A DNA stretch of 64,000 nucleotides from an uncultured Prevotellaceae bacterium (GTDB lineage Bacteria > Bacteroidota > Bacteroidia > Bacteroidales > Bacteroidaceae). The notes beneath the pieces are model-generated. The model was not told the DNA's origin and searched no databases. It worked only from the letters and a program-made list of their open reading frames with translations. The stretch is taken from assembly GCA_900315075.1 (NCBI GenBank), contig OMXV01000016.1:1-64000 (forward strand), written 5' to 3'. Shown here piece after piece: positions 26,794 through 63,480 of the stretch (positions are counted from its first letter, which is position 1; each line of letters begins with the position of its first letter). The translations under genes were made by a program, and so were the position numbers.

Positions 26794-26812
26794 TTTGCGG
26801 GGTTTGATGGGA

Positions 26813-28606: not shown

Positions 28607-28651
28607 ACCATAAAAAATGAAAAAGAACCAATATTAATCATGATGTAGGTG

Positions 28652-31085: not shown

Positions 31086-31116
31086 AATTATTTGATTTTA
31101 AATGCTGCAGATTCGT

Positions 31117-31422: not shown

Positions 31423-31466
31423 AATAGTTTTGAACTTTTGTTACATATAGGTTATTTGACGACATC

Positions 31467-34484: not shown

Positions 34485-34614
34485 AAGGCTGAAAATTGAA
34501 GATGATTAAATGAAATGTAGTTAAAAGGAAGTTTATGAGTCGTTAAAGAGACATTTCCTATGGTAAGAGGTTAGGGGTTAGAGGTAAGAGGTAAGAGACA
34601 ACTAAAGAGCAACA

Positions 34615-35736: not shown

Positions 35737-35772
35737 AATATGTTGAGTTGATGAGTTATTGAGTTGATGAAT
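35737..35772 (-). repeat. G-free octamer leader
   Basis: On the coding strand ATCAACTC-AATAACTC-ATCAACTC-AACATATT precedes the ATG at 35736, with period 8. Confidence 0.65.
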
Positions 35773-35810
35773 TATTGTGTTTTTAGGGGTGAGGTGTAGG
35801 TGATTAGGGG

Positions 35811-48414: not shown

Positions 48415-50244
48415 TTATTTCTCCAGATTGACGAGTTGGATGAAGATGGGCATGGCGATGCATGCCTTGTTTTGTATGCGCTGGTGTATCATGACATCGA
48501 AAGCCACTTTCCGGGCGTGTTCGTAGTTTTTGATATCTTTGAACTCGATATCGATGTAGAGTCCCCGGCGTAGCAGGCGTGGTCCGGCAGAGCCTTCGAT
48601 GCGCATACGGATGTAGATACGGCGGAACTCCTCGCTTCCAAACTCCGCCATGACCTCCTTTCGGATGAAAGCCTCGATGTCCATACGGGTGTAGAGGCGG
48701 TCGGCGGTGAGCGAGTAGTAACGCAACTGCTCATATCGTCCGTCGGCAGATGCTTTGTCCACCCCGCCCATGGCATCTACCATCACCTCGGCCTTAGGGA
48801 GCAGTCCGGGGAGTTTTTTACACTCCAGTGTATGTCCCATTTTGGGTGTGTTGCCCTTGTTTCCGAGTGTGGTGAGATAACTTACCTTCACAGTGGAAGA
48901 AAGTTGGTCGCTGCTCATGTTTTTCATCACAAAGGTGCCACTGTCGAACATAAACTTGTCGTTTTTCCCTGTGACCGACTTCCCGATGGTGTTGACGCAT
49001 TCGCGCAATCGGCGCAGTGCCTCGCCATCCTTGATGCCATTGTATTCCACAAAGGCATGGAAATCATCGATAAAGCGATTGTACAGGTTGCGCACATCGC
49101 GATACAGTTCGCCATTGTTGTAGCATGAGGCATCGAAGTCGCGTACAATGATGTCGTCGCTCATGCGCGAGAACCCCATGCCCCGCGCCTGCGTGCTGGT
49201 CTCGAGCACTTGCAGGAAGAAGGAGTTCTCCTGTTTGTTGAGTTTGGCAATAGGTGTTGCCTGGGTGAGCATCAGGCTGCACACATCTACATTGACCACC
49301 GGCACAACATTGGGCACCACCTCGCAGTCTTCGCTCACCTCATAACCCTCAGGGAAGTCAATTCTAAGCCATAGGTTGCCACAGTTGGAATCGACGAGAC
49401 TGTCGAGCATTTCGCTCTCTAACCACTGAGCGAGCACTGCAGGGTATGGCTGTGGCTTGAAGACATCACGGTCGGAGATCGGGTCGGTGATATAGATGAG
49501 TGTGGCATCAGGGATATGCAGCAGGCAGTCTTTCCATACCTCCATATACGAAAAGAGTTTACCCGAAGCCTGCTGTGCGTCGAAAGGTTCCACCATATCG
49601 ATGTCCTCCATCTCGCGCATGGTTGCGAACTCCAGTTCACGATTGCCATTGACCAAGGTCACACGTATGGGAGCCATGCCATTTGTTCCCCGGATGAGCA
49701 GTGGTAGCCCCTTGAGACATTCTATCTCGGCTTTTGTGCCAATGCATAGATAGACGCTGGAGGGCGAGTCGGTCTGAATGCCAATTTCGGCGACGTTGCC
49801 AGCGTGGCGCATCTTGCGGTGACTGACGAGAAACACGCGCTCTGACTTAGTCTCTGTCGAGACATAGACTGGAATGCCCACGGAATGGAACAGCGGTATA
49901 TAATTGATTTGCAACTTCTCGGCGGGAATTCGCAGTGTGAACATCCCTCCTTCGCCAACAGTGAAAAGTTCGCCTGTTCGTGGGTCCTTGTTCTTGGGCT
50001 GCACCAGGGTGATGGCTGGTATGGCATCGACACGCTCACGGGGGATGAAGTCGGCACAATAGCGTTCGGTGACACGCTGTGTGACACCCTCGGCATAGTC
50101 GCGCACTTTCTGTGTCTCATTGAGCAATGCCACGAGCATCATCTGTGCTATGGGATCGGAGAGCGCATCGTCAATCTGACCGTTGGGGATTGTCCTCAGA
50201 TGCTTCAAGGCTTCCTCATAGGTATTTTTCAAGTCTTTATCCAT
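48415..50244 (-). CDS. tssF: T6SS baseplate protein TssF
   Basis: It has 609 residues, the usual TssF length, with no signal peptide. The N-terminus carries the family hallmark arrangement: helical start, DPIAQMMLVALLNETQKV (equivalent to DP..RLLEAFAFL), ERYCADFIPRERVDAIPAITLVQPK (equivalent to FP..TRALL...PSMAVVQ), then VGEGGMFTLRIPA. TssF wraps with TssG around the TssE/wedge of the baseplate. It lies 5 bases after tssE, and tssG and tssK are in the same run, which makes the assignment firm as a set. The divergence from proteobacterial TssF fits the Bacteroidetes subtype iii. Confidence 0.82.
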   Translation of the reverse strand: MDKDLKNTYEEALKHLRTIPNGQIDDALSDPIAQMMLVALLNETQKVRDYAEGVTQRVTERYCADFIPRERVDAIPAITLVQPKNKDPRTGELFTVGEGGMFTLRIPAEKLQINYIPLFHSVGIPVYVSTETKSERVFLVSHRKMRHAGNVAEIGIQTDSPSSVYLCIGTKAEIECLKGLPLLIRGTNGMAPIRVTLVNGNRELEFATMREMEDIDMVEPFDAQQASGKLFSYMEVWKDCLLHIPDATLIYITDPISDRDVFKPQPYPAVLAQWLESEMLDSLVDSNCGNLWLRIDFPEGYEVSEDCEVVPNVVPVVNVDVCSLMLTQATPIAKLNKQENSFFLQVLETSTQARGMGFSRMSDDIIVRDFDASCYNNGELYRDVRNLYNRFIDDFHAFVEYNGIKDGEALRRLRECVNTIGKSVTGKNDKFMFDSGTFVMKNMSSDQLSSTVKVSYLTTLGNKGNTPKMGHTLECKKLPGLLPKAEVMVDAMGGVDKASADGRYEQLRYYSLTADRLYTRMDIEAFIRKEVMAEFGSEEFRRIYIRMRIEGSAGPRLLRRGLYIDIEFKDIKNYEHARKVAFDVMIHQRIQNKACIAMPIFIQLVNLEK

Positions 50245-50249
50245 GGTGG

Positions 50250-50756
50250 TTATTTGTATCTCTTGGCGGTGGGTTCCATGAGGAATTTCACTTCCTTATG
50301 ATATGGACGACGGTCATCGATGCCGTCGTTGTATTTACCATCGACAATGAGGGTGACCACATATTTTGATTTCACCTTGTGGGTGGTGGATTCCGTCTCG
50401 GAACTGCCGATTGGTGTTAGTGTGAGCGACACTTGTACCTCGCGGAGTGCAGGAGCGTAGTTGGCTAGACTCGTACGCACACTCTCCTCGCATTCCTGAC
50501 GTGTCACTTCATTACTCATGCCCTCGATGATGCCTATATGTCCGTTGTTGAACTCTCGCGACTGTACATTGGCATACTCATGATTCCAATACTCGAAGCC
50601 GAAATCGGGGTCGGCATGGAATGCACCCCGTGGCGTGAAGACGATTAGCTCGACCAGGTTGTCGAAACTCTTCACTCGGTCGTCAATGGTGCGTTGGAAG
50701 GTGATGTCGCCACGCTCTTCCTCCAGTGTCGTAAGGGGAATGGAAATAAAGTTCAT
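50250..50756 (-). CDS. tssE: T6SS baseplate protein TssE (gp25-like)
   Basis: It has 168 residues with no signal peptide, and the GPW/gp25 fold pattern: ITFQRTIDDRVKSFDNLVELIVFTPRGAFHADPDFGFEYWN, where FTPRG and PDFG are the phage gp25 signature, followed by ECEESVRTSLANYAPALREVQVSLTL. TssE initiates sheath assembly on the baseplate. Overlap with phage baseplate alone could suggest an eCIS, but TssK and TssF next to it point to T6SS. A G-free octamer leader precedes the ATG. Confidence 0.85.
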   Translation of the reverse strand: MNFISIPLTTLEEERGDITFQRTIDDRVKSFDNLVELIVFTPRGAFHADPDFGFEYWNHEYANVQSREFNNGHIGIIEGMSNEVTRQECEESVRTSLANYAPALREVQVSLTLTPIGSSETESTTHKVKSKYVVTLIVDGKYNDGIDDRRPYHKEVKFLMEPTAKRYK

Positions 50757-50920: not shown

Positions 50921-52201
50921 TCATATTTCATATAGCCAGAATCTGCTGTTGAGAGATTTGACCAGTTGTATGTTGTAGGTAGAGACCTCACTCTTATCGT
51001 GGCCAACGAAAGCGCAAAGTTTCAGGGTGACCACCTTATCGGGTTCGCTTCCCTTTCCAGCGAAACCGTTCGGGAAAGAAATTTTTCCATTTTTCCCCAT
51101 CTTCTTCGACTCCAGCGTGGGGTCACTGCCATCAATGGTGAAGGTGACAGTGGCTTTTGACGAAGGAACTTCCACGGGTATGGAAGTAGTGGAGGTCTGA
51201 CATTCTTGTTTGAGGTATTTGCTGGCGATGGTGGGTGCAGCCAATTTTCCCGGTGCTGGCGATGGTGGCGGTGGTGGTGGCGGTGGTGCCGCCTGTGCCA
51301 TCACGTCAAGTTTGGTGTTAATGGAGAAACAGATTTCAAGCCCCTGATTCACTCGTGTATAGACATCCTGGTAATTGTATGGTGCCTCGACAAACTGATT
51401 GAAAGTCTTACTGTCTTCCTCATTGAGCACAATCGTGCCACCGGTGAGTTGGCAACCACAGACAAATACGCTCACACACTGCTGCAAAATGGAAAGCATC
51501 TGCATCGGAGTGAGTGTGTCGCGTTCCTTGTCGGCGACGATTCTCAATTGTCTTACAGTGGGCCAGAAAGCCACAGCCACCTCCTTTGCCATGGCAGATG
51601 CTGCCACCTGCGCACTCTTGGTATCAGCATTGGCCAGGAAATCACACAATCGGTAGTACTGTTCTTGGAACTTTCGGTGTGAGGTAATCAGTAGGCATGG
51701 AGGCACAAAATCCACGTCATCCTGTTGCCAACCACTGTAAGGATTGGCTACGATGCGCGCAATGGGCACAGCATTATCTGGAACGGGGGTGGAGGGTGAT
51801 GTGAGTGCAAAGCCGTATGCCTGTTCTTCGAAACCATCATCAGTTTCACGCCATCCGTCATCGCGGATGAAGGCTATGAGTATAAGTGAGGCATTCTCAG
51901 ATGCATTGGCTGGCAAAACCACACGCACGTCCTGTGTCTGTGTATAACGCGTGTCGTAGTCGATGTCTATCAAGCGTCCGTCGCGTGTGACAGCCAGACA
52001 ACAAAGTGTCTCGACATCGATGGATTCATTAGTCACATTGAGCGACACGTCAAAGGGTTTCAATGCTGGCAACAGTCCCATTCTCTGGGATGCGGCAGTC
52101 ATGAGGACACGACTTGTGAGCGACAGGTGTGCATCATCCGACATACGCATGATCTCATCGGTGAGGCGCATTCCTTTTTTCCAGTTTATTTTCTTGGGCA
52201 T
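50921..52201 (-). CDS. tssK: T6SS baseplate protein TssK with extra C-terminal domain
   Basis: It has 426 residues. The N-terminus INWKKGMRLTDEIMRMSDDAHLS matches the TssK entry (W-x-x-G-M-x-L...), followed by the shell domain and a helical neck (about 195-265). Then comes PPPPPPPPSPAPG (about 305-320) and a C-terminal beta domain with VTFTIDGSDPTLESKKMG, the pattern of chitobiase-type C-terminal domains. In known T6SSs the TssK head domain contacts the membrane complex, so this replacement is notable. Adjacent tssG, tssE and tssF support the call. Confidence 0.78.
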   Translation of the reverse strand: MPKKINWKKGMRLTDEIMRMSDDAHLSLTSRVLMTAASQRMGLLPALKPFDVSLNVTNESIDVETLCCLAVTRDGRLIDIDYDTRYTQTQDVRVVLPANASENASLILIAFIRDDGWRETDDGFEEQAYGFALTSPSTPVPDNAVPIARIVANPYSGWQQDDVDFVPPCLLITSHRKFQEQYYRLCDFLANADTKSAQVAASAMAKEVAVAFWPTVRQLRIVADKERDTLTPMQMLSILQQCVSVFVCGCQLTGGTIVLNEEDSKTFNQFVEAPYNYQDVYTRVNQGLEICFSINTKLDVMAQAAPPPPPPPPSPAPGKLAAPTIASKYLKQECQTSTTSIPVEVPSSKATVTFTIDGSDPTLESKKMGKNGKISFPNGFAGKGSEPDKVVTLKLCAFVGHDKSEVSTYNIQLVKSLNSRFWLYEI

Positions 52202-52299: not shown

Positions 52300-53181
52300 C
52301 TAAATATTGGCGTTGTATCCTAAGTAGTTGAGGATAACATCGTCGGAGAGTCGTAGCGGCGGTCCATCAGTGACCACCTCAAACACTAGGGTGTGCTCGA
52401 TAGAGAGGAAATAATCTTGCACAAAAAGACGGAATTCGGCGAGGGCATCGAGATAGCCGAAAAAGTCATCCTGGCTCTCCTCTTCTGGCCAGTATGTAAT
52501 TTTATAGGTGACGATATCTTCCATGTAGGCATTGCCTAAATAGCTATCGCCCAGGTCGCCATTCAAGCCGTCGGAATAGCTTGGCTCAGCATCGGTATTC
52601 AGTATGGGTGCCTCACAGATTTCCACCACCAGTCCTTCTTTCATCAGTATTTTCCGCAGCATGAGAGTAAGCAAGAGCCGGTTGCCACGGATTATCTTGC
52701 AGTGAGGAATGAAAGGCAGCACCTGGCAGATGAGTTTATTGGACTGTTGCTGAGGTGTGAGGCGGTCGCAGAGAATGTCGATGAGCACCTTGTTGCCAGC
52801 AGTGTGTTTTTCGATGATTTCCTGTACATCGGCACGCAGGTTAAGCAGCAGTTCGTCGAAGGGTGCAAAAAACTTCCTTGCACGCTCCTTCTCCCGCTCC
52901 TGTTTCTCAATTTCTTCACGGAAACGCTCTTCCTTGTCTTTCTCTGGAATGTTGTCGAAACGGTCGATAGGATGAAACATATATTCCGGCAAGGCATTGT
53001 AGAGACTTGACCTTGCGACAGAGAGTGTCATCTTCTCTTCGTGAGCCTCAAACCCCGACATATCGAAATAGACACCACGGTTGTGGGTGCCTCTAAAAGC
53101 AAGTTGGTATTCGCCTGGAAACAACCGGAGCATGGTCTCGGCACTGATATCATCAGGTATCTGATGTGGAATGTATAACAT
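52300..53181 (-). CDS. tssG: T6SS baseplate protein TssG-like
   Basis: It has 293 residues with no signal peptide. Sequence similarity is harder to see by eye than for TssE/F/K, but the length, acidic N-terminus, the FSVARSSLYNALPEYMFHP-like block (residues LSVARSSLYNALPEYMFHPI) that parallels the TssG core, and the position between tssK and the other baseplate genes fit TssG. It completes the wedge (TssE-TssF2-TssG). It is followed downstream by tssK after 98 bases and preceded by the E1 gene after 25 bases. Confidence 0.68.
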   Translation of the reverse strand: MLYIPHQIPDDISAETMLRLFPGEYQLAFRGTHNRGVYFDMSGFEAHEEKMTLSVARSSLYNALPEYMFHPIDRFDNIPEKDKEERFREEIEKQEREKERARKFFAPFDELLLNLRADVQEIIEKHTAGNKVLIDILCDRLTPQQQSNKLICQVLPFIPHCKIIRGNRLLLTLMLRKILMKEGLVVEICEAPILNTDAEPSYSDGLNGDLGDSYLGNAYMEDIVTYKITYWPEEESQDDFFGYLDALAEFRLFVQDYFLSIEHTLVFEVVTDGPPLRLSDDVILNYLGYNANI

Positions 53182-53206: not shown

Positions 53207-54403
53207 TTATTTGTAGCGTTTGGCGTCATCGGTCAGTTCCACATGAAACATCCCGCGGTCGGTGGTCACCTGTATCACATCGTAGGGTGGTATGCCCACC
53301 TGCTCCAATGTGAGGTCTTGATAGGGGAAGTATTCGTCGAGATTCTCGTAGAACGACTTGCGGAATCGTGTGCGGTAACTCAATTTACGCAGTTCCTCAT
53401 GATCGTTGATATGTTCCTCAAGGTGCGATTCTGGCATCATCACATCAAACTCTTTCTCGGGGTTCTCGGAGATGATGCGGTCGATGAACTTATTATTGAG
53501 CATATTGATTTCCACAGCATTGACAGCGAGTCGTTCCTTGAGCAACTGTAGGGCATCGCTCACCGTAAGACTCGATGACAAGCCCTCGCATGGCTGTACG
53601 TCGGTCCATATGTCGTGGGCGGGACAATTGTTTTTCCACGAGGCAAAGCGGTAGATTCTCATGCCATTGGTCATTCCTTCGTAGTTGAGCATACGTCCCT
53701 GAAGGGTCTTATATGTGCCAGGCTGTAGCGTGTCATGGTGTATGAGTTTCATCACTTCCTGCACCTGTAAGGCTGCCACGATAGATGCACTGATGGGGGT
53801 GGTGGCAATACGTCCAGCCGAGGCCTGCATACGTACCACGTCTGCACATCCCGTGCGCAGCATGATGTTGTTGAATTCCTCGTGCGAGAGACCACACTCA
53901 TAGCAACAGACCCCAGGTGTGAACGTACGAACATTGCCCGAGAGATTCTCGATGCTGCCATCCACCCATGACTTGCCGGCGCGGATGGAAAGACGGTTGA
54001 GCAGATAGCGTGCAATGCGGCTGTCGAGGCAGCCCACCACGGCATCGGCCGAACGATATAGCCCTAAGCCCACCTCGGAGAATAGGTTGCCTACGATGGG
54101 TATGACCTTGATTTGCGGGTTGATTTCCATGGCCCTGCGTGCCACCACCTCGGCTTTGTAGGCATGGCTGAAGGCATCGGCCTCGCGGAAGAGCACAGAG
54201 CGCGTGAGATTCGACACCTCTATGCGGTCGAAATCCACCACATAGATATGCCCCACACCAAAGAGGGCGAGGTTTTTCACCACCTCATTGCCCAAGGCCC
54301 CTGCGCCAGCCACGACGACGCGTGCATTGCGCACTTTGTCTTTCTGAAACCAGGAGAGCAAGGTATATACGCCTTCTCCCCATTCATACTTATTGTCAGC
54401 CAT
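53207..54403 (-). CDS. E1-like ubiquitin-activating enzyme (ThiF/UBA fold)
   Basis: It has 398 residues with no signal peptide. The Rossmann start VVVAGAGALGNEV (Gly33, 35, 38) and DFDRIEVSNLTRS (Asn65, Arg68) build the ATP site; LDSRIAR follows. A CxxC pair sits at Cys167/170, and Cys260 with His263 may complete zinc binding. Cys186 in RTGCADVVR sits where the catalytic Cys of MOCS3-type E1s lies, before the helix ASIVAALQVQEVMKLI. The last 110 residues (QDLTLEQVG...DVIQVT) resemble a ubiquitin-fold/UFD docking domain. It would adenylate the 108-residue modifier and pass it to the E2. Starts inside the TAATG overlap with the barrel gene. Confidence 0.9.
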   Translation of the reverse strand: MADNKYEWGEGVYTLLSWFQKDKVRNARVVVAGAGALGNEVVKNLALFGVGHIYVVDFDRIEVSNLTRSVLFREADAFSHAYKAEVVARRAMEINPQIKVIPIVGNLFSEVGLGLYRSADAVVGCLDSRIARYLLNRLSIRAGKSWVDGSIENLSGNVRTFTPGVCCYECGLSHEEFNNIMLRTGCADVVRMQASAGRIATTPISASIVAALQVQEVMKLIHHDTLQPGTYKTLQGRMLNYEGMTNGMRIYRFASWKNNCPAHDIWTDVQPCEGLSSSLTVSDALQLLKERLAVNAVEINMLNNKFIDRIISENPEKEFDVMMPESHLEEHINDHEELRKLSYRTRFRKSFYENLDEYFPYQDLTLEQVGIPPYDVIQVTTDRGMFHVELTDDAKRYK

Positions 54404-55155
54404 TAGAAGACAAGTCCTATGTTGGCTCCCACAGAGAATCTTCCAATGCGCTCTTTAAACACATCGAAGTCTCCACCAGAGCAGTTGATGTCGTATTGAA
54501 AGAAAGAACCAAGCCTGACAAGTTGGTTGCCAATAGGCAGATAACCACCGAAACCCAACTGCGGGGCAACTATAAATCCAGACTTCCCTGCATCGGGATC
54601 GATGTCATCTTTCACCTTGGGGACAGCGAAAGTGGCATCATATCCCTTGCCGCCACCATAGAATGTGGGCATGACTCCCACGGTGCCATAGAGTGAGGCG
54701 TGGGCACGGTCGATTTTTCCAAATTCGAGCGAAATGGGAACACCTGCCATGAAGAGAGTCTCGCTCAGTTGTTCATTGCCCCGTTCGTATTTCCCGAAAG
54801 AAAGTGCTAGCGATACTCCTGTGTTGAGATAGACCCCGCTACTTAGTTGGAATTTGTAGGCGGCAGCAATCTCGGGCACATTTGAACAGCCCACACCCAC
54901 ATAGCGTGGCACACGGAAGCGTGCCTCTACCTGCAGTGCGTGACTTACTGGCGACGACATTTTGCCGTTCACTACGGTGTCGCGCTTCAAGTGATAATAC
55001 TCATACAGGTCAACACCCTTGATGAGACGGTATTTGAAATCGCCCGGCTCTTTGTACTCTACTTCGTATGGACCCACTTCGAAATTATCGACATCTTGTG
55101 CCGACACCATAGATACCGACATCGCTATTAAAGATAAAATAAGGATTTTTTTCAT
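54403..55155 (-). CDS. outer-membrane beta-barrel protein of the locus
   Basis: About 250 residues from the Met at 55155 (signal peptide ending MVSAQ); the frame is open 17 codons upstream over the hairpin repeat, which I exclude. The mature part has a short periplasmic segment and about ten amphipathic strands (VSHALQVEARFRVPRYVGVG, GVYLNTGVSLALSFG, GFIVAPQLGFGGYLPIG), ending GANIGLVF with a terminal Phe. Its stop codon overlaps the E1 start by one base, so it is cotranslated with the activation enzyme. It may be an outer-membrane component of the secretion envelope complex (inference). Confidence 0.75.
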   Translation of the reverse strand: MKKILILSLIAMSVSMVSAQDVDNFEVGPYEVEYKEPGDFKYRLIKGVDLYEYYHLKRDTVVNGKMSSPVSHALQVEARFRVPRYVGVGCSNVPEIAAAYKFQLSSGVYLNTGVSLALSFGKYERGNEQLSETLFMAGVPISLEFGKIDRAHASLYGTVGVMPTFYGGGKGYDATFAVPKVKDDIDPDAGKSGFIVAPQLGFGGYLPIGNQLVRLGSFFQYDINCSGGDFDVFKERIGRFSVGANIGLVF

Positions 55156-55187
55156 ATAATATTCAATATAAGTTTTTCCTTCTATTT

Positions 55188-55213
55188 GCGACGGCAGTCG
55201 TCGCATACGGAGG
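55188..55213. repeat. GCGACG..CGTCGC hairpin repeat, copy 2
   Basis: Stem 55188-55193 / 55199-55204 followed by ATACGGAGG. It lies 33 bases before the start of the barrel gene, in the same relative place as copy 1 before tssK. Confidence 0.8.
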
Positions 55214-55215
55214 AA

Positions 55216-57618
55216 CTATTCTTCTATATATTTAAACATGGTATCACCAATTTTAAAAGTGTCGCCATTGGAGAGGACTGTGGGCTTACCCACGGGCAAG
55301 TCGACCCGGTTGTTGTAGATGACGGCTGGTCCGAGAGGCTTAATCATCGGCAGCATGCGTTCACGGTCGATAAAAAGCTGTGCGTGCTCTTTCTGTACAT
55401 TGTTGCTCTTCTCCCAGTTCATCTGAATCTCGCAGTTGACAGTCATACCAATGGTCACTTTTTGCCCACCACCCGTGGCGTTCATCCACTTGTGGATGGG
55501 GATACGAGTCTTGGCACGCACACCATTCATAATCACCAAGAAATATTTCTCTGCCAACATACGTACTGTGACGAGCGAAGCCCCTAAGCCACCACCATAG
55601 ATGATGAAGTCGAGCAACATGTTCATCCAGCTCATCTTGTCGCTGGTGAATTTCGAGAAATAAAGCACAAGAAATCCGATGACTGCCGAACAGAGTCCGC
55701 CTAACAGGGCACTTTTCACTGGTATAGTGGATTTCACTGTGAGGCTCAAAGATACGAAAATGGAGAAGAGGATATAGGCTGGAAGTGAACAATACCAAGG
55801 AATATAGGTGGTCTTGACCAATGACAACAGTACCCCAAGAATATAGGCACCTAAAGCAAACGCCAGCATACCCACAATACCTGAGAAGATGGAAAGCCCT
55901 ATAATCTTGGCAATCACCTTCCAGTTTTTCTGTCGGTACTCATCATTGAACCTGAAAATAAGCGATAGGAAGAAGCCGAGCAGCAGACCGATGGTGAGGA
56001 AGGCATTGGTCTTGTTCTCCACGTTCATCAAGTGAAGTTGCTGAGCTTCATCAGAGAGAGATGCTGCTGCCAGTGTCTTTGCCAGTGCGCCAAAGAAGCC
56101 ATGCCCGAACAATTCGTAAATAATCCAACTGATGAATCCCGCAAATACCCCCATGATTGTGAGGTAGCAGTCGCGCAGCGTGGCCTTTGAGAATATCTGC
56201 TTCCACTCTATATGATCCTGTATACCCTCAGTGCAGTTTTGCCCATACTCAGCACAACGATAGTGGTTGTGCTTCCAACAATGCACGTGCATAACGTGCT
56301 TGCACCGTTGAACTACCATCTCGCCGGGTTCGAAGGGTCGCTTGCAATAATAACATAGTTCGCGTGTAACGTTCTCTTTCGGCATGAACTTGCGATAATA
56401 CTTGGCAGCAAATGTGCGCGACTTAATCCATGGTATCAGGATTTTCATTACGGCAATTGCCAAGCAGATGGTCAGCAGCGTGACAAGCAGCGCCCAGAGG
56501 ATTTTCACCAAAATGTCGGTGGTCGTCTGCTCACGCAACGGCCATGGTGTCTCGGCTGTTCCGATGGAAAAGTCGGCCTCGCCGGCCGTAACGCCCTTCC
56601 ACTCTGCCAAGTAGTTGACACGTCCGCTGTATGACTTGCCATCCTCAATCTGATAGGTGTAGGCAAAGTCGTACATGGCATCGTCAATCACGCGCTGGAA
56701 ACTTGACAGCACTTTGTTGATGTCGCTCGACTTCTGATAGTCGCCACGACGGCTGGCGATGATGGCATCTGTGGAGTCTTTGGGTGTGGTTATATTTTTC
56801 AACATCGTTTCCACATTCTCGTCCATTGCCCCAGGTGTGTAATAAAAGGCAAACACCCTAGGGACAATGCGTCTCAGGTCAGTCTCGATATCTTCGACAT
56901 CAAACCTATTTATCATTTCCATTGAAGGATATCGGTCGCCCTCTGTGAAGATAAAGAGGATATTATTGTCGGGATTTGCCTTTGCACGCTGTGCGATAGT
57001 GGCATTGGGTGCATAGTCTGCCAATGCCTGTTTCAGATAGTCATTATCTATTGGGGCTGGGTCGAATTCACATAGTTTTGCACAGAGCGACCTGTAGAGG
57101 AACTTGTTGTCGGCGTGCTGAAGAAAGCGGTCTTTCATGGTCTTGAATGAAGCCTTGGTGACCATTTCGCTGCTACTCACCTCATCGCCGAAGAACGAAA
57201 GATAGACGCAACTGTCGGGTGCGCTGGCAACCAAATGCTCTACCGCATCATATATCTGGCTCTTGCCCTCATCAGGGATACTAAGGTCAATGAGCACCGA
57301 GAATGTGTATCCCGGTGGTATGCGCTGCCCACTGTTGAGGGCTTTTACGACACGTCGGTCATTGGGTATGGCATTCCCACCTTCCTTGACGACTAAATAG
57401 TCTTCCAATTCTTGTGCGGTGATGTCCTTGTTGTGGTTCCCATCACGGTCGAGCACTTTGATAAAGATTGTGATACTGTCGCTACCCACCTTATACTCAT
57501 ACTTCTTGTCGCAGAATTGTATCTTGGATACACTCTGGGCTACGACTCCCACAGTGACAGTCAGCAATAAGGCTACTGTCATGCTGATTCTACGGATCAT
57601 CTCCTTCTTCTTGTCCAT
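55216..57618 (-). CDS. membrane protein with VWA-like, RING-H2-like and FHA-like domains (candidate E3)
   Basis: It has 800 residues: a signal/anchor helix, a periplasmic VWA-like region (about 85-290, degenerate MIDAS DLSIP), a TM helix (about 385-410), then a cytoplasmic zinc motif C422-x2-C425-x13-C439-x-H441-x2-H444-x2-C447-x7-C455-x6-C462. The first six ligands have RING-H2 order and spacing; the last pair is wider than CxxC. Five to six more TM helices (about 485-690) and an FHA-like domain (about 705-800; SNGDTFKIGDTMFKY) follow. It would be a membrane-bound E3 that also reads phosphothreonine. Parallel roles such as TssN/TssR-like membrane component are possible. Confidence 0.75.
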   Translation of the reverse strand: MDKKKEMIRRISMTVALLLTVTVGVVAQSVSKIQFCDKKYEYKVGSDSITIFIKVLDRDGNHNKDITAQELEDYLVVKEGGNAIPNDRRVVKALNSGQRIPPGYTFSVLIDLSIPDEGKSQIYDAVEHLVASAPDSCVYLSFFGDEVSSSEMVTKASFKTMKDRFLQHADNKFLYRSLCAKLCEFDPAPIDNDYLKQALADYAPNATIAQRAKANPDNNILFIFTEGDRYPSMEMINRFDVEDIETDLRRIVPRVFAFYYTPGAMDENVETMLKNITTPKDSTDAIIASRRGDYQKSSDINKVLSSFQRVIDDAMYDFAYTYQIEDGKSYSGRVNYLAEWKGVTAGEADFSIGTAETPWPLREQTTTDILVKILWALLVTLLTICLAIAVMKILIPWIKSRTFAAKYYRKFMPKENVTRELCYYCKRPFEPGEMVVQRCKHVMHVHCWKHNHYRCAEYGQNCTEGIQDHIEWKQIFSKATLRDCYLTIMGVFAGFISWIIYELFGHGFFGALAKTLAAASLSDEAQQLHLMNVENKTNAFLTIGLLLGFFLSLIFRFNDEYRQKNWKVIAKIIGLSIFSGIVGMLAFALGAYILGVLLSLVKTTYIPWYCSLPAYILFSIFVSLSLTVKSTIPVKSALLGGLCSAVIGFLVLYFSKFTSDKMSWMNMLLDFIIYGGGLGASLVTVRMLAEKYFLVIMNGVRAKTRIPIHKWMNATGGGQKVTIGMTVNCEIQMNWEKSNNVQKEHAQLFIDRERMLPMIKPLGPAVIYNNRVDLPVGKPTVLSNGDTFKIGDTMFKYIEE

Positions 57619-59792
57619 ATTTTCAAATCATCAAATTGTTGTTCTCCATAATATTGATAGTCTGTGGTGAGGCCTCTCTCATCGGCGGGGATGGCAGTGA
57701 GTTTACCCTCAGCGGTGGAATAAACCAGCACAAATCCAATTTTCTGCTCATATCCCATGATAGCCTTGCGCACGGATGGCATACTGAAATGTGATGTCAC
57801 CACCAAGCACCCCACGAGGTCGTTGTCGGGCACGGCGGTTTCCTTGGCCACTTTGTTAATCAAGAATTCCAACGACGATGATGCTCCCTGCTCACGTCCG
57901 AACCCATGCACAAATCCCACCAGTCCTGAACGCTGCTCGCTGAGCAACATGTCGATATCGATAATCGCACTGTTGGTCATGTGTATGCCATTGCATTTCT
58001 CTGTGTGACGAACGGCTTTTGCTAACAGGTTGTATGTATTCTCGGTGTCGATGGTATTGCGGTCGCTCTCCACAGCCCAACGGTACCATTCCTCAAGAGA
58101 GTACATCCGATGGATGTCGTCCTTGGAGTTGATGGTACCGTCTTTCCGGAAGATAAACACGCCCGTGGTCTGCTCTGGTGTGAGGATGTCGATGACCAAT
58201 GCGGTAAGGAAATGTGGGTGTGTGGGGTGCTTGAGTTGCATCTGCACGGTACTGTCGGAATTGCTGAAAAACACGCCCAGCCCCGGATGTGAATGTACCC
58301 AGCATGTGAGGTCGTATTGCAGTCCGGTGGTGGTGCGCAACTTGCGTAGCAACTGATTGACTCGTAACTTGATTTTACCTCCGAAATTCAACTCATACTC
58401 ACCAAATATCGCATCGTCGCCTGGCTTGACAATCTGTTCGAGCGTGACGTAATATTCACGAGCCTTCTCATCGTAGAACCATCGTCCGAGCACCATACAC
58501 CCGTCTTCCTTTGGATTGCTCTCATCGCGCAGGTCTTCGGCATACATATTATAGATATCCTTGACACAAGTATTCTTAAGATACATCAACCTCACGGCAG
58601 AGTCAGAACAGAAGTCGGCAGTGTCGATGCGCATATAAGCGGGATTGTTTACCACATCGTCGATGCTCTGCTTACGCAGGATGGTGGTGGTCTTACGGCG
58701 TACGACGATTGACTGTCGGGCTTCCTCGGGTGTGGGTGTCGGGCGCCGGTCGGGGCTGCTGACACGTGCAGGCATCTCCTGCTCCTTGCGATGTCGCAGA
58801 TACCAGGCAACTAGTGCGCCCAGTAGCAACAGAGCAGCGACGATAATAAGGATTGGTTTCCAGTAGATATCAGAATCTTCCACCTCCTTGCTGTTGATTT
58901 CTTCTTCTATAAGCGCTGCATTGCGATCATGTGCCTTGAGGCGGTCTTCAATAATCTTTGTCAACGAATCGAGGCATTCGTCGCGGTCGGCAATACCCTG
59001 TCGTTTGTAATTGTCTGTCAAGAAATCTCGAACCACAAATCCTGCCTGCCCTTTGTGAAAATTCACAGAATCACGCAGTTGCTGTATAAGTGTCATCAAC
59101 TGGTTGTTGGTGATGTACTCATCGCGGTCCTTCCAATTGCGCAGGTTCTGTAAATGCTGATTCACCTTGTCGGTTTCCTGATTGATATTCTGTTCGGAAT
59201 AGAAGGGTATTCTATCAAGAAAAGCCTTAAAATCACTGATGACAGTGGCTGCTGAAGCCCCCTTGCTGTTCTGGCGAACGACATCGCGATCTACATCAAT
59301 ATCGATTTCCATAGCAGCAACTGGTTTGGCAGGCTCATCAACTTGCCGTCGGGTTGTGGCTTCATTATCAGCAGGCTTTGGCGTAGTCTTTGCTTCCGTC
59401 GGCTTACTTTTTTCGGAAGGTTTTTCATCGGTTGGAGCAGGCTTTTCTGCTTCAGGTTTGGAAGTAGATGCCTCAGCAGCATTGACGAGTTCTTTAACTC
59501 TACTTTGAGGCAGGAGTGTTCCAAAGTCTTTACCATCCATACTGACCTGAATATATCTGCATATAGCATTGACAGGGGCGCGACTCTTGGCAGGCACCAT
59601 GATTGGCCCACTTCCGGGCAACTTGATATATACATCGTTGCCTCTGTTGTTGTAAACACCGCTGACGTAGATACCGTTTTTTTCTGCTGGTATGCTATAA
59701 GAAATATCAATACCATCGGCATTGATAGAGTGTTGCGCATCGATTGTCATCGATACGAGAAAAAGGATAAAAATAAATGTCAAGCGTCTCAT
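57597..59792 (-). CDS. membrane-anchored JAMM/MPN peptidase (deconjugase candidate)
   Basis: It has 731 residues: signal peptide ending IDAQ, a periplasmic beta domain (to about 100), a Pro/Glu/Lys-rich linker, a helical stretch, a TM helix (about 315-335), then a cytoplasmic JAMM domain. The metal site is complete: Glu429 in KEDGCMVLG and His500-x-His502-x7-Ser510-x2-Asp513 (HSHPGLGVFFSNSD), close to the proteasomal Rpn11 version. A second MPN-like segment (about 620-700, no His pair) may be an inactive partner. It would remove the ubiquitin-like protein from targets at the membrane. Its end overlaps the RING protein gene by 22 bases. Confidence 0.9.
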   Translation of the reverse strand: MRRLTFIFILFLVSMTIDAQHSINADGIDISYSIPAEKNGIYVSGVYNNRGNDVYIKLPGSGPIMVPAKSRAPVNAICRYIQVSMDGKDFGTLLPQSRVKELVNAAEASTSKPEAEKPAPTDEKPSEKSKPTEAKTTPKPADNEATTRRQVDEPAKPVAAMEIDIDVDRDVVRQNSKGASAATVISDFKAFLDRIPFYSEQNINQETDKVNQHLQNLRNWKDRDEYITNNQLMTLIQQLRDSVNFHKGQAGFVVRDFLTDNYKRQGIADRDECLDSLTKIIEDRLKAHDRNAALIEEEINSKEVEDSDIYWKPILIIVAALLLLGALVAWYLRHRKEQEMPARVSSPDRRPTPTPEEARQSIVVRRKTTTILRKQSIDDVVNNPAYMRIDTADFCSDSAVRLMYLKNTCVKDIYNMYAEDLRDESNPKEDGCMVLGRWFYDEKAREYYVTLEQIVKPGDDAIFGEYELNFGGKIKLRVNQLLRKLRTTTGLQYDLTCWVHSHPGLGVFFSNSDSTVQMQLKHPTHPHFLTALVIDILTPEQTTGVFIFRKDGTINSKDDIHRMYSLEEWYRWAVESDRNTIDTENTYNLLAKAVRHTEKCNGIHMTNSAIIDIDMLLSEQRSGLVGFVHGFGREQGASSSLEFLINKVAKETAVPDNDLVGCLVVTSHFSMPSVRKAIMGYEQKIGFVLVYSTAEGKLTAIPADERGLTTDYQYYGEQQFDDLKIWTRRRR

Positions 59793-59803
59793 GTGCTGTG
59801 TTT

Positions 59804-61342
59804 TTAGATAGATATTTGGTCGTTTTTTCCTGGTTTTTTCCTACTAAAACGTGAAAAGAAACCTCCCGTCTTTGGGGCAGTGGTACCAGTGCTTGCGGTT
59901 TTAGCCCTGGCAGCAGCAGAAGCAGCACCGGATGGCTTTCTGACAGATGCCGCAGTGGTGGTTCCGGAAGTCTTCCTGACAGAAGCAGTGGTGGTAGTTC
60001 CTACTGGCTTTCTGACAGAAGTAGTGGAGGATGCGGATGCTGACTTCCTGACTGACGCAGTGGTTTTTCCCGTGGCTTTTTCTGCGCCATCTCCGATGGT
60101 GATTGGTTTGGACTTGCCCGTGGCATGATTGACTGCTCCTCTGACGGCATCTCTCCCTTTGTTGCGGATAGCACCTTCGGTCTGACCTACCTTTTGGCGT
60201 ATGGCTCTCGACGCGCGGCGTCTTGCCTCGTTGGTGACACGGCGTTCGAGGTTTTCTTGCATCTGCTCTACGCTACGCAAATTGCGTAGGTTGCGGAAAT
60301 GCTGGGTGAGTTGGCTTCCCACAAACCCGAGGATGCCGAGGATGACACCGCCAATAATCATCCACAGTGTGCGTTTCTCACTTTTTGACTTTTCGGCTTG
60401 CTGGGCTTTCTGAATACTGTCGTTCTCTGCCTTTATTTTATCTTCTTGGGCTTTTTGCTCCTTCTGTTGGGCAGCAACCTTCTTAGCACTGCATGTTGAA
60501 ATAGCATTGTTGATCTGATTACGCAGAGATGTATCCGAAGTATTATTAAGATACCCTTGTAACTGAATTTGACAATCCTGAAGTTCAGAAGAAGAGATGT
60601 CAGGTCGATTAATCATTGCAATTATTCTTTCTATCTCATCAGCAGTTGGCACCCCCACTGCACCACCACTCTCAGGATTGTAGGGCATGTCATAGTATGG
60701 CATCGGTTGATTATATTCCCCATACTCCATAGGAGGGTACTCAGTTTGTCCTTCAGTTGAGGGTATGGTTATCGTCTCTGCTGGTTTGGTATGAGAAACC
60801 TTCGTCGTAGGTATAGCCAGTTTGACCGACAGGTTGCCACAGTCTGCAAAGATCTCACAAGTACTTTTTTGTTTTGGAATAACACTCTTTTTATAATTAG
60901 CTAAATAAATAGGAATTTCAATTGTGTGCTCTTTTCCGTCGTTTGCTTCCATTTCAATAGCCACGCCATTGTTGAGTTCTATGTATCCTCCGGGACTTAG
61001 CTTGTAGTTTAGGCCTTTAGGAGACAAGATACGTGTGATTTCATGTCCCGTGAATTTATAATCATTTTGGGCATAACTATCAAAAATAAAAATTTTATGG
61101 TTTTTTTTATTTTTGTATTTACTTGAGTTAATACCAGAAGGAAATGCTCTTACACTATTGAAACGGATCTTAAATTTTCCATCCCCAACATGTACCGCCT
61201 CGTATGTAATATAGACTTTGTCACCCAATGAAGAGATCAAGGTATCGGTCTTCACATATCCAAATGAGGAAAGAGAACCTGCCAAAAGTATCAATAAGGC
61301 TATTAGATGCCTTGCTTGTCGGTTGACTACGTATTTTGTCAT
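59804..61342 (-). CDS. membrane protein with beta domain, coiled coil and basic SVRK repeat tail
   Basis: About 512 residues from the Met at 61342, which begins the signal peptide and gives a 31-base gap after the upstream gene; an earlier in-frame Met would overlap it. The periplasmic beta domain is about residues 25-180, an Asn/Pro/Tyr-rich spacer follows, then a Gln/Lys-rich coiled coil (about 290-330), a TM helix (about 335-357), and a cytoplasmic tail with repeated ASVRKPSG-type units, Thr/Ser/Ala-rich and basic. Many Ser/Thr next to Arg/Lys make this tail a good kinase substrate. The beta domain resembles that of the next upstream gene. Confidence 0.7.
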   Translation of the reverse strand: MTKYVVNRQARHLIALLILLAGSLSSFGYVKTDTLISSLGDKVYITYEAVHVGDGKFKIRFNSVRAFPSGINSSKYKNKKNHKIFIFDSYAQNDYKFTGHEITRILSPKGLNYKLSPGGYIELNNGVAIEMEANDGKEHTIEIPIYLANYKKSVIPKQKSTCEIFADCGNLSVKLAIPTTKVSHTKPAETITIPSTEGQTEYPPMEYGEYNQPMPYYDMPYNPESGGAVGVPTADEIERIIAMINRPDISSSELQDCQIQLQGYLNNTSDTSLRNQINNAISTCSAKKVAAQQKEQKAQEDKIKAENDSIQKAQQAEKSKSEKRTLWMIIGGVILGILGFVGSQLTQHFRNLRNLRSVEQMQENLERRVTNEARRRASRAIRQKVGQTEGAIRNKGRDAVRGAVNHATGKSKPITIGDGAEKATGKTTASVRKSASASSTTSVRKPVGTTTTASVRKTSGTTTAASVRKPSGAASAAARAKTASTGTTAPKTGGFFSRFSRKKPGKNDQISI

Positions 61343-61373
61343 GATGTCGGAATAGTTAAAATAGCTCAGGGGG

Positions 61374-62405
61374 TTACCTACTTTGGATTTGACGATAGAG
61401 TCTATTAATATCATTGGTCAATTTGTTTCTGGCTTTTGCACAATTATAAAGTGCGTCTGCCGTTGACTTGCTTGCACCATTCATTGCTGCCCAAATCTGA
61501 TGTGAACTATATGAGCAATAGCGGCAGGAATGGGGAGGTGGTGAAGGAGGTGTAGAAGTTGTTGAAGGGAGTGGTTTCTTACCACCTCCAGTTTGTTTAC
61601 AATTCTCGGTGAAGATGATGCCATCAAGCTTCTCCTTGAGTTCAGCATATCGTTTGGCAGGACGGTCTGTTTGATACCAGCCGTGGCGGTTGACAATGTC
61701 ATCAATGTCTTTTTTCATTTTCGTGATACGTGCGTGGTCATCATCCCATTTCTTCTTTCCTCTTTTATTTTCACGACAATAGGTGTTCTTTTCTATCTCG
61801 CTCTTGATTTTATCCACTTTTTTCTCCATGTCTATATACCCTTGGTCTGGTTTAGTGGAATATGTAATATTGAGCTGGATGCATTTGGGCTGGTCGAAGA
61901 TGGTGTATTTCTTCTTGGACTTACCTTTGCTCTGCACCACATAGATTGGCAATTGCAACACATGTTCACGCGTATCATCGATGATGAAATTACGGATGAC
62001 TGTTACCTTTGAATTGCGGTCTTGATCGATGGCCACAAAGTCGTTCCTGTCTAAATCTTTTGCCGCCATCACTCTTCGACTTCCTTTGGTTCCGCCTATA
62101 CCTTTGTCAAATTTCACTTTCTTACTTTTAAGGCTTTTCTCATCAAGAGAAGTTCGAAAAAGCAGTAGTGCCACCTCACCATCATAAATATTGACAATAT
62201 TCTCAATGGTAACAGTCACTTTTGCCTTGTTTTCTTCTGCTGTGTCTTCTTTTTTGATAAAGATATTGGCATATGGCATTGAGATGGTGTCGGCTTCATT
62301 GTCAGCATCAAAGTTGATAGTCGTTTTTTCCCAATCACCATCATCTTGTGCATGAAGCGTGAGACAGGTAAGAAAAAGGAGCGAGGCGATAAAAAATGCT
62401 TTCAT
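61374..62405 (-). CDS. exported protein with beta domain and Cys-rich C-terminus
   Basis: It has 343 residues with signal peptide ending LTLHAQ. The beta-rich first 200 residues include REHVLQLPIYVVQSKGKSKKK and KCIQLNIT, which parallel EHTIEIPIYLANYKKS and LSVKLAI of the neighbouring 59804-61342 protein, so the two share a domain. A charged helical middle, a GGGKK..PP linker and a C-terminal CRYCSYSS..C segment follow. No catalytic motif recognised. Located between E2 and JAMM genes, it is a likely periplasmic partner of the membrane proteins here. Confidence 0.7.
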   Translation of the reverse strand: MKAFFIASLLFLTCLTLHAQDDGDWEKTTINFDADNEADTISMPYANIFIKKEDTAEENKAKVTVTIENIVNIYDGEVALLLFRTSLDEKSLKSKKVKFDKGIGGTKGSRRVMAAKDLDRNDFVAIDQDRNSKVTVIRNFIIDDTREHVLQLPIYVVQSKGKSKKKYTIFDQPKCIQLNITYSTKPDQGYIDMEKKVDKIKSEIEKNTYCRENKRGKKKWDDDHARITKMKKDIDDIVNRHGWYQTDRPAKRYAELKEKLDGIIFTENCKQTGGGKKPLPSTTSTPPSPPPHSCRYCSYSSHQIWAAMNGASKSTADALYNCAKARNKLTNDINRLYRQIQSR

Positions 62406-63079
62406 ATTGTGAGTGTTCTTTTAATTGGTTTCTGGAGTTCTGCCTCAGGGGCTTCTTCTATTTCAGTTTTCTTGGGAGAGGGCTTCTCGGTGGATGGTTC
62501 AGGTTTGTCCTGACCGAAACGAATCCATCCATTAGGTTCTCCTTCTTCTCGCACCCATTCAGCCACGTTCTGGTCTTCGGGATAGGGATAAGTGTTTTCT
62601 GCATGATAGAGCTGATATTTTAGGTATCTCTCCACGCGCAGCACGAGGTCTTTGAGCGAAGCGAGCACGCCCATCTCCTTTATGGTGAGGCATACATGGC
62701 CCTTAAAACTGCCAGAGTGACGGATGTTGGGATGCCAAATGTCGGTGCGAAAAGTGAAGATAGGATTGCCGTCGGCAGAAGGATAATTGTTGGGCAATAC
62801 TATGCTCATCTTGTGGAGATAGCCAAAGATGGGTTCACGTGGTACCGGTCCGTCTTTCACACCCACGATAGACTTCACACGATACCATATCTCGTATTCT
62901 GTGGGTAATCCAAGCACATTTTTCCTACGGATGATATACGAGATAGAGGGTTGGCGGGGATTAGGGCTTGATGCCTTTCGTTTGTCACAAAGAGTGTCGA
63001 GGTCTTTCCATTCCTGCCACAGGCGGTGGTCGCGTGTCTGCAGTTCTTTTTGGTTGAAGTTGTTGATAGCGCTGTTCAT
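62402..63079 (-). CDS. E2-like ubiquitin-conjugating protein (UBC fold)
   Basis: It has 225 residues with no signal peptide. The UBC core spans about 45-165. SIVLPNNYPSADGNPIFTF is followed by HPN (116-118) in IWHPNIRHSG and by Cys130 in GHVCLTI, twelve residues after the Asn rather than eight as in human UBE2D, because of a four-residue insertion. SLKDLVLRVERYLKYQ forms the next helix. The last 50 residues are Pro/Glu/Lys-rich and probably disordered. It would carry the activated modifier as a thioester. It lies 22 bases after the modifier gene and its end overlaps the following gene by 4 bases. Confidence 0.9.
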   Translation of the reverse strand: MNSAINNFNQKELQTRDHRLWQEWKDLDTLCDKRKASSPNPRQPSISYIIRRKNVLGLPTEYEIWYRVKSIVGVKDGPVPREPIFGYLHKMSIVLPNNYPSADGNPIFTFRTDIWHPNIRHSGSFKGHVCLTIKEMGVLASLKDLVLRVERYLKYQLYHAENTYPYPEDQNVAEWVREEGEPNGWIRFGQDKPEPSTEKPSPKKTEIEEAPEAELQKPIKRTLTI

Positions 63080-63101
63080 GATATCATTCCTTTAAAATCT
63101 A

Positions 63102-63428
63102 TTAGCCAGCAATGGGTACTTGCATTAGTAGCAGATGGTCTTCGGGCTGCACATTGTAATCTACAAGTGCCATTTCACGACCATCCTCATCTGTGAATTC
63201 AAGAATAATTGGCTCATCTTCGTCGTCCACCATTTGTCCAAGAAGGTACTGGATAGGATTGCCACCATTGTCCATCTTGGGCAATTCAAATACCTGCACA
63301 ATGCTGTTGATTTGATCGCGAATAGTTTTGGTAGGATCGGTCACTTTCACTTCAGCTTCCTCAATTGGGGTGCCCTCAATTGTCAAATAGATGATAAACT
63401 CATCATCGTAGAATTGTTCGTTTTCCAT
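63102..63428 (-). CDS. ubiquitin-like modifier ending in Gly
   Basis: It has 108 residues with no signal peptide, acidic. Beta-grasp order is readable: strands FIIYLTIEGTPI / EAEVKVTDP, a helix TIRDQINSIVQVFELP, and strands EPIILEFTDED / ALVDYNVQPEDHLLLMQVPIAG. The PEDHLLLMQVP end matches the last ubiquitin strand, and the protein stops exactly at a C-terminal Gly, as needed for adenylation and thioester transfer without prior trimming. Directly followed by the E2 gene. A G-free octamer leader precedes it. It could instead be a YukD-like beta-grasp protein, but those lack this tail. Confidence 0.85.
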   Translation of the reverse strand: MENEQFYDDEFIIYLTIEGTPIEEAEVKVTDPTKTIRDQINSIVQVFELPKMDNGGNPIQYLLGQMVDDEDEPIILEFTDEDGREMALVDYNVQPEDHLLLMQVPIAG

Positions 63429-63480
63429 ATTTGTATTTTTTTAGTTTATGAGTTTTTTAGTTTGTGAGTTTATAAGTTTT
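63429..63480 (-). repeat. G-free octamer leader before the modifier gene
   Basis: Coding strand AAACTTAT-AAACTCAC-AAACTAAA-AAACTCAT-AAACTAAA-AAAATACAAAT ending at the ATG at 63428: five octamers with an AAACT core. Confidence 0.75.

Follow-up and report, generated by a model that had tools for sequence, protein, structure and literature searches.

A ubiquitin-like conjugation gene set within type VI secretion loci of Bacteroidales

The type VI secretion system (T6SS) of Bacteroidota known as T6SSiii, the Bacteroides fragilis type, is the closest described relative of the machine considered here. In the accessible text of Bongiovanni et al. (PMC10781749), TssNQOPR is the membrane complex of T6SSiii, tssN and tssP are nearly ubiquitous, tssN lies between tssK and tssG, and the complex is present, whole or in part, in all 443 T6SSiii from 1253 complete genomes. 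We analysed bases 1-64000 (hereafter the window, 64,000 bases) of an 83,650-base contig, OMXV01000016.1, from the genome of an uncultured Prevotellaceae bacterium (4.5 Mb, completeness 99.99, contamination 6.96). The window carries a T6SS locus in which a set of ubiquitin-like conjugation genes, encoding a putative modifier, an activating enzyme (E1), a conjugating enzyme (E2), a probable RING-type ligase (E3) and a predicted JAMM peptidase, lies among the secretion genes. The locus shares ClpV, TssB, TssC, Hcp, VgrG, a PAAR-like protein and TssK, TssE, TssF and TssG with T6SSiii, and its TssC fits the Bacteroidota model PF17541 and its Hcp the Bacteroidota model PF17642. It differs from T6SSiii in having the ubiquitin-like set between the effector genes and tssG, and in the absence of a detectable TssN from the genomes that carry the set.

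Conjugation sets of this kind are known from other settings. The Bil, Bub and CBASS ubiquitin-like systems share their E1, E2 and JAMM logic with the set, and the experimentally tested bacterial E1/E2/JAB operons are, to our knowledge, phage-defence systems. Prokaryotic ubiquitin-like sets with a RING E3 were reportedly described by Burroughs in 2011. Ubl, E1, E2, JAB and RING-type E3 genes encoded together, as well as FtsH ternary systems, appear in the accessible text of Kaur 2020 (PMC7159879); compared with the prokaryotic RING sets given there, the present one has a separate modifier and E2, a JAMM and a RING in membrane proteins, and T6SS neighbours, and none of the locus proteins scanned matched MoxR, FtsH or EAD. 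In the part of Iyer 2006 (PMC1779556) that is accessible, E1, E2 and JAB, and in type 6d also a ubiquitin-like protein, share one operon; the 6c and 6d E2s are given in the table text without the classical His, in contrast to the E2 described below, and 'type VI' is absent from that text. A putative T6SS in Prevotella stercorea is reported in the accessible portion of Coyne 2016, which mentions neither ubiquitin nor ThiF nor JAB. Among the matches listed for literature on T6SS or secretion and ubiquitin, in which subscription literature is covered incompletely, no paper coupled both. What is probably new here is the coupling of a ubiquitin-like set to the T6SS; prokaryotic ubiquitin sets with a RING were already known.

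The gene set and its T6SS surroundings

A single minus-strand run extends from 63428 down to 43782 (positions of open reading frames within the window), in the order modifier, E2, u343, u536, JAMM, RING, omp267, E1, TssG, TssK, TssE and TssF, ending with a 445-residue protein, a glucosaminidase and two further genes. Intergenic gaps range from -41 to +25 bases between the modifier gene and tssG and are at most 175 bases from tssG to 43782, and no gene lies between tssG and tssK. The initial annotation had described such a run, with a complete conjugation set inside a T6SS locus passing into tssG, tssK, tssE and tssF; reading frames and gaps agree with it, and the contig goes on into the rest of the T6SS. 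Upstream of the modifier, on the same strand, follow genes for a DUF2931 protein, a Tle1-like lipase, a DUF4280 (PAAR-like) protein, a 109-residue protein and VgrG, and further upstream two Hcp (PF17642), TssC (PF17541, E 1.9e-125), TssB (PF05591, E 0.0078, under the cut-off), ClpV and a NusG-like gene. The ubiquitin-like set is placed between the effector genes and the baseplate genes of one T6SS.

The family searches that had been proposed for the set were answered in part: the E1 matched PF00899 strongly and the E2 fell near the PF00179 cut-off, but the JAMM and RING domains matched weakly and the modifier, TssG and TssF had no Pfam match. We relied on family profiles and on conserved residues, counted across loci after removal of repeats. 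The modifier (63102..63428) has 108 residues and ends in ...DYNVQPEDHLLLMQVPIAG; Gly108 is kept in 67/67 loci and is the final residue in 65 of these. Ubiquitin is the top match of its family profile in the PDB, where the very small E-values belong to multi-ubiquitin chains whose weak repeats are summed; single-domain ubiquitins range from 0.003 (designed variants) to 0.1 and beyond, with the C-terminal stretch aligned. One divergent modifier also matches YukD (PF08817, E 4.6e-4, under the cut-off), and the weak ubiquitin and YukD matches together support a ubiquitin-like (beta-grasp) fold, as far as profiles can indicate one. In three loci (L042, L099 and L108) the modifier carries 2-4 residues beyond the Gly. 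Such a tail would need trimming, and a JAMM is present in all three loci, as a conjugation system predicts.

The E2 (62402..63079, 225 residues) carries Trp-His-Pro-Asn at 115-118 and Cys130, all kept in 69/69; it scores 26.9 bits against PF00179 (E 4e-6, cut-off 27), its family profile lies nearest UBE2K in the PDB (E 8.8e-9), and it is predicted to have a UBC fold with a catalytic Cys. The E1-like protein (53207..54403, 398 residues) matches PF00899 with E 5.9e-50 and is nearest UBA7 in the PDB (E 1.3e-32), which, with its GxGxxG at 33-38 and Cys186, points to an activating enzyme with a nucleotide-binding loop and a catalytic Cys. Cys186 and C167/C170/C260/H263, the latter a possible Zn site, are kept in 63/63. 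Identities to the window proteins fall as low as 18-38%, and even there the catalytic residues are near-invariant. The motifs named in the initial annotation, namely HPN at 116-118 and Cys130 of the E2, Cys186 of the E1, five JAMM residues and eight RING ligands, are thus all present and conserved. None of the outcomes it had itself named as fatal (an E2 lacking the UBC fold, a modifier lacking the beta-grasp fold, or restriction to this one genome with the E1 next to an unrelated pathway) was encountered, the folds being judged by profiles.

The remaining two catalytic parts had been placed in membrane proteins, and hydropathy agrees. The JAMM protein (57597..59792) has a single transmembrane stretch at about 314-332, followed by E429, H500, H502, S510 and D513, which are kept in 60/60; its N-terminus looks signal-like by eye and is below the hydropathy threshold. 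The window protein matches PF14464 weakly (E 0.046), its homologues match Prok-JAB in 18/29 and JAB in 10/29 (best 1.7e-8), and the family profile is nearest RPN11 (E 7.1e-9), like UBE2K and UBA7 a eukaryotic protein; we regard it as the predicted deconjugase or processing peptidase of the set. The RING protein (55216..57618) combines a signal-like N-terminus (by hydropathy), a vWA-like N-terminal part, a transmembrane stretch at 373-391, a RING-H2 domain at about 418-465, six further transmembrane stretches and an FHA domain at 721-791. In the window the FHA match has E 0.0031 and that to zf-RING_2 (PF13639) is weak, E 0.063; homologues match zf-RING_16 in 14/30, FHA in 6/30 and VWA in 3/30. 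Eight Zn ligands are kept in 63/64, the exception being L107, in which several ligands are lost and the domain has a U-box-like look. Ligand pattern and Pfam matches of the homologues make this protein the likely E3. Given the transmembrane positions, the JAMM and RING domains would both face the cytosol.

FHA and RING stand in one protein also in the eukaryotic ligases RNF8 and CHFR, whereas here the protein is a membrane protein and the FHA Arg is mostly lost: the Arg position, which we take to be the phosphothreonine-binding one, holds Met, Lys or Ala in 58/64 homologues and Arg in 4/64. Reading of phosphorylated residues by this domain is doubtful because the usual Arg is lost in most members, and the idea of a phospho-dependent E3, whose FHA would read kinase marks, is correspondingly weakened. 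Between E2 and JAMM lie u343 (61374..62405, hydrophobic at 1-19, probably exported, of no known family) and u536 (59804..61414, a probable exported protein with a membrane anchor, hydrophobic at 36-54 and 349-367), which are related to each other (hhalign 95.5%). Between RING and E1 lies omp267 (54403..55206), which has an N-terminal hydrophobic stretch and no family match, and occurs in only part of the loci. The hydrophobic stretches of all three were called by hydropathy.

Of the secretion genes, Hcp and VgrG match their family models strongly and TssB, TssK and TssE weakly. TssK (50921..52201) matches TIGR03353 with E 2.1e-7 and TssE (50250..50756) matches PF04965 (gp25) with E 0.0038, both under the cut-offs, the latter being syntenic. 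For TssG (52300..53181) a profile of our own matches TssG-like genes of other T6SS loci. Our TssF profile (TssF at 48415..50244) matches TssF-like genes adjoining tssE elsewhere, with only 21-28 bits in TssN-type and kinase-type loci except G013; in two of the TssN-type loci the matched copy does not adjoin tssE.

Distribution, gene order and inheritance

An alignment of six E2s (A1) was used to scan a collection of genomes from 84,980 species and yielded 64 loci, among which contigs of G033, G113, G122, G006 and G034 are counted once. T6SS genes adjoin the E2 set in 62 of them; of the other two, L063 is a 6.7-kb contig and L038 a real exception. Besides the E2 (64), the parts found were the modifier (62), RING (59), u343 (59), E1 (58), u536 (57), JAMM (56), TssG (56) and TssK (55), and modifier, E2, JAMM, RING and E1 occur together in 51 loci, while 8 others reach a contig end. 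As far as the stretches reach, the main group has the order ClpV-TssB-TssC-Hcp-Hcp-VgrG-PAAR-effectors-modifier-E2-u343-u536-JAMM-RING-(omp267)-E1-TssG-TssK-TssE, and a group of five loci the order E1-TssG-TssK-TssE-TssF-modifier-E2-x-x-RING. The carriers are Prevotellaceae (38), Bacteroidaceae (6), Muribaculaceae (4), five families with one locus each and 11 with no family name, so that the coupling, whose co-occurrence the initial annotation had proposed to check in Prevotella, extends beyond that genus into several families. Xylanibacter muris, Palleniella intestinalis, Barnesiella sp. An22 and Parabacteroides distasonis An863 are apparent isolates among them. Three more divergent genomes also have a T6SS-adjacent set, complete in two (L095/L096 and L097/L098) and cut by the contig end in the third (L094).

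In evenly drawn genomes, the window genome being included in both samples, the E2 was found in 6/393 of the order and 3/395 of the phylum. Five of the six E2s of the order sample lie in T6SS loci (the window, G033, G440, G376 and G246); modifier, E2, JAMM, RING and E1 are all present in G376 and G246, and the contig of G440 stops short of them. The same set recurring in the same context in other species is more than chance would give.

The set is also co-inherited with T6SS genes. A TssC tree was built from 32 of 37 wanted rows (2 repeats were omitted, and L041, L079 and L081 gave no row); unrooted and with long branches, it places 20 ubiquitin-type rows together with G013 opposite 11 TssN-type, kinase-type or unassigned rows, on a branch supported at 100/100. 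In an E1 tree of 28 rows, likewise with long branches, T6SS E1s are split from two outside E1s on one branch (97/90). For the 18 genomes present in both trees, the path distances of the E1 correlate with those of TssC (r 0.845), and 4 of 2000 permutations were as high.

Several observations weigh against the explanation favoured below, a conjugation module belonging to the T6SS. The share of 62/64 is biased upward, because the six E2s of A1 are all T6SS-located and the scan picks up only sequences that fit either of two short patterns derived from them. In five loci (L086-L090, carried by two Muribaculaceae, Parabacteroides distasonis An863 and two further organisms) the JAMM is the only part missing, no JAMM motif being found in the stretch examined. 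In the even samples, one E2 of the order (G216) and both new E2 genomes of the phylum (G681 and G775, which belong to a single genus) have no adjoining T6SS. Together with L038, their loci (L099, L107 and L108) make four sets with no T6SS genes alongside, and TssC was not found in the four genomes, in a search with no positive control of its own whose model was positive in 18 genomes elsewhere; L038, flanked by FHA-, LysM- and WG-like genes (by sequence reading), has no T6SS gene within 20 kb, and its genome, in which no TssC was found, has 2.0 Mb. The approximately unbiased (AU) test rejects a clade made up of the ubiquitin-type TssC rows but not G013 (p-AU 4.9e-6), and G013 has a related T6SS in which the set was not found; one gain and one loss fit the tree, as would an old presence with losses. 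The coupling claimed in the initial annotation recurs, then, but the cassette also stands outside T6SS loci, and in five loci no JAMM was found. Sets outside T6SS loci indicate that the cassette either predates its employment in T6SSs or reaches beyond it.

Among these outside sets, L107 and L108 encode E1, modifier, E2, JAMM and RING. L099 runs E1, modifier, E2, a 241-residue protein, JAMM, RING, a 290-residue protein, SrfB (E 1e-213), a 325-residue protein and an SrfC-like protein (PF10139, E 1.8e-139). Apart from the question of the T6SS, this stretch (L099:1548-18543), in which SrfB and SrfC-like genes come after the vWA-RING/JAMM set, may connect the little-understood SrfABC operon with ubiquitin-like tagging. 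On the same contig, open reading frames of 248 and 357 residues (L103:3682-7385) have further N-termini that look ubiquitin-like by eye.

Flanking genes and the kinase region

Downstream of TssF, the 445-residue protein (47007..48344) matches no family above the cut-off and has a weak relative in the same place in L015 (22% identity, E 3.6e-5). It is followed by a glucosaminidase/FlgJ-like muramidase with LysM-like repeats (45985..46980; NCBIfam matches to 4.4e-30, all under the cut-offs), which stands at the same run end in three relatives (L011, L014 and L015). A 1592-residue surface protein with PARCEL repeats and a weak type IX secretion sorting signal (37341-42119) separates the T6SS run from a group of kinases.

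These kinases, also on the minus strand, are Ser/Thr protein kinases at 35811..37205 (PF00069, E 2.1e-42) and 28652..30181 (PF00069, E 2.8e-41), accompanied by a PP2C phosphatase at 25900..26793 (PF00481, E 2.3e-16). With Sel1 and WG-repeat-like proteins the region 25900-37205 may form a second control layer. Kinase-like reading frames also directly follow the glucosaminidase in L011, L014 and L015. A threonine phosphorylation pathway of PpkA, PppA and Fha1 is known from T6SSs; kinases and a PP2C are likewise found downstream here, and the ubiquitin-like set is an addition. Kinase genes occur in the Bacteroidales T6SS loci of G013 (L130/L131), G445 (L132/L133) and G527 (L135/L136), which yielded neither TssN nor the ubiquitin-like set; the kinases were identified by Pfam in the first two and by our own profile in the third, and the loci of G013 and G445 have FHA or PP2C genes as well. 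We considered whether the ubiquitin module replaces the kinase module and rejected this, as kinase- or PP2C-like genes lie downstream also in the window and its three near relatives, the four loci that were compared. Given this module, ubiquitin-like tagging is probably not the sole control of the machine.

Possible roles of the set and alternatives

We favour, as rather probable when taken as a whole, the explanation that these Bacteroidota T6SSs have a ubiquitin-like conjugation module of their own. The E1 would adenylate the terminal Gly of the modifier, which would pass via Cys186 to Cys130 of the E2. The RING membrane protein, its RING in the cytosol, would serve as the E3 on the inner side of the envelope, attaching the modifier to a T6SS part that docks there, most likely the TssK/TssG baseplate, the next candidates being sheath, spike or membrane-platform proteins. 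In most loci a membrane-anchored JAMM would, at the same site, mature tailed modifiers and later remove the modifier, and tagging may signal or permit the machine's docking, assembly or disassembly. That the parts work together in this manner can be proposed with fair confidence; the target and the effect on firing do not follow from the parts. We know of no native non-defence target established for any bacterial E1-E2-RING set, and the gene order kept across several families narrows the field to one machine.

The question of the anchor bears on how far this goes. TssB/TssC sheath, Hcp, VgrG, ClpV and TssEFGK stand in one locus, as in a T6SSiii, and the TssNQOPR membrane complex was not recovered in this system. 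TssN (PF17555) is above the cut-off in 8/393 genomes of the order and was found neither in the window's own genome nor in set-bearing genomes (0/34); in 32 of the 34, all but G216 and the genome of L038, T6SS genes adjoin the set, and 30 were reached through loci and come with no completeness figures. A diverged TssN in these genomes is possible. Weak TssN matches in G450 and G476 came with no T6SS-profile match in the stretches examined. TssC occurs in 18 genomes of the order, of which 5 also carry the E2, 7 carry TssN, 6 neither and none both; this suggested mutual exclusion of TssN and E2, but the chance probability is about 0.05 (by hand), and we set the idea aside. We infer that set-bearing T6SSs use another platform, for which the exported and transmembrane proteins of the set are candidates. 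The T6SSs of G013, G445 and G527, which yielded neither TssN nor the set, speak against this. A fuller version, plausible but held more tentatively, is that a Bacteroidales T6SS branch missing the TssN anchor has an envelope platform with a cytosolic ubiquitin-like ligase (vWA-TM-RING-TM-FHA, TM being a transmembrane stretch) and usually a TM-JAMM, in which tagging would be the docking, assembly or reset step.

A neighbouring explanation, a little more doubtful again, is that the set is chiefly the T6SS membrane platform: u343 and u536, along with the exported portions of the other two membrane proteins (JAMM and RING), would take the place of TssNQOPR, and the ubiquitin chemistry would serve the platform's own assembly. 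The missing TssN, set against the near-ubiquity of tssN and tssP in T6SSiii, would be accounted for, and the RING protein joins a vWA-like part, transmembrane stretches and one more domain, a combination that in T6SSiii is divided between TssR and TssN. Yet u343, u536, JAMM and RING show no profile similarity to TssN, TssP, TssR or TssO/Q-like proteins, for which reason we rejected the idea that they are homologues of TssNQOPR; the same membrane proteins are present outside T6SS loci; and 6 of 18 TssC-bearing genomes, among them the inspected G013, G445 and G527, yielded neither TssN nor the set, so that a missing TssN does not mark out set-bearing genomes. TssR was found in 0/24 set-bearing genomes, but its model misses 3 of 5 TssN-bearing controls and finds only two. 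In the accessible account (PMC10781749) every one of the 443 T6SSiii has at least some of the membrane complex, which speaks against other kinds of anchor being common there.

Less likely, in our view, is a general envelope-signalling or contractile-injection module that was recruited by a T6SS ancestor and still acts on non-T6SS targets. It would suit L099, which adjoins SrfB and SrfC-like genes, and L038, which adjoins FHA-like genes by sequence reading. G216, G681 and G775 each carry a VgrG-like gene as well as sheath and tube genes resembling those of extracellular contractile injection systems (eCIS), the latter named by reading sequences rather than by family search. This eCIS association is suggestive only: VgrG-like genes are common, in 35/138 genomes of the phylum, and G681 and G775 represent one genus. 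In these two the VgrG-like gene shares a contig with the set but lies about 26 and 49 kb away from it. The linkage to T6SS is far tighter. As an observation in its own right, very large reading frames and eCIS-like genes, again by sequence reading, share a contig with the set (L107, L108 and L148-L152).

We give little credence to a modifier acting as a non-covalent structural subunit, like the ubiquitin-like folds of EccD and TssN, with E1 and E2 as relics. A ubiquitin-like domain of TssN was indeed proposed as a docking hub, after EccD, in the accessible text of Bongiovanni et al. (PMC10781749), but the active sites of E1, E2 and JAMM, together with the modifier's Gly, stay conserved at identities as low as 18-38%, which speaks against this. 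Equally improbable is an anti-phage ubiquitin-like system of the Bil, Bub or CBASS type that hitch-hikes in a T6SS locus. Generic PADLOC E1-E2 models match the E1 (best 1e-13) and generic JAB models the JAMM of L099 (best 6.5e-7), but the modifier, E2, JAMM and RING of the window have no PADLOC match, and the gene order is maintained inside T6SS operons. Nor does the E2 have a match in plasmids, phages or viral contigs, for which reason an origin from mobile elements was also discarded. Sulfur transfer or cofactor synthesis by a ThiF/MoeB protein with ThiS/MoaD is very improbable: the E1 does match ThiF/MoeB models, far under their cut-offs, but its family profile is nearest UBA7 in the PDB, and it has E2, RING and JAMM partners.

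Returning to the explanation that we favour, a T6SS with its own ubiquitin-like conjugation module, the set makes it possible to test whether a contractile weapon of gut and rumen bacteria is under ubiquitin-like control, and raises the question of how T6SSs without TssN are anchored. In many gut Bacteroidales a tagging kit lies in the T6SS cluster, which suggests that tagging helps to build, anchor or fire the weapon. If this is true, bacteria would operate one of their secretion machines through ubiquitin-like tagging.

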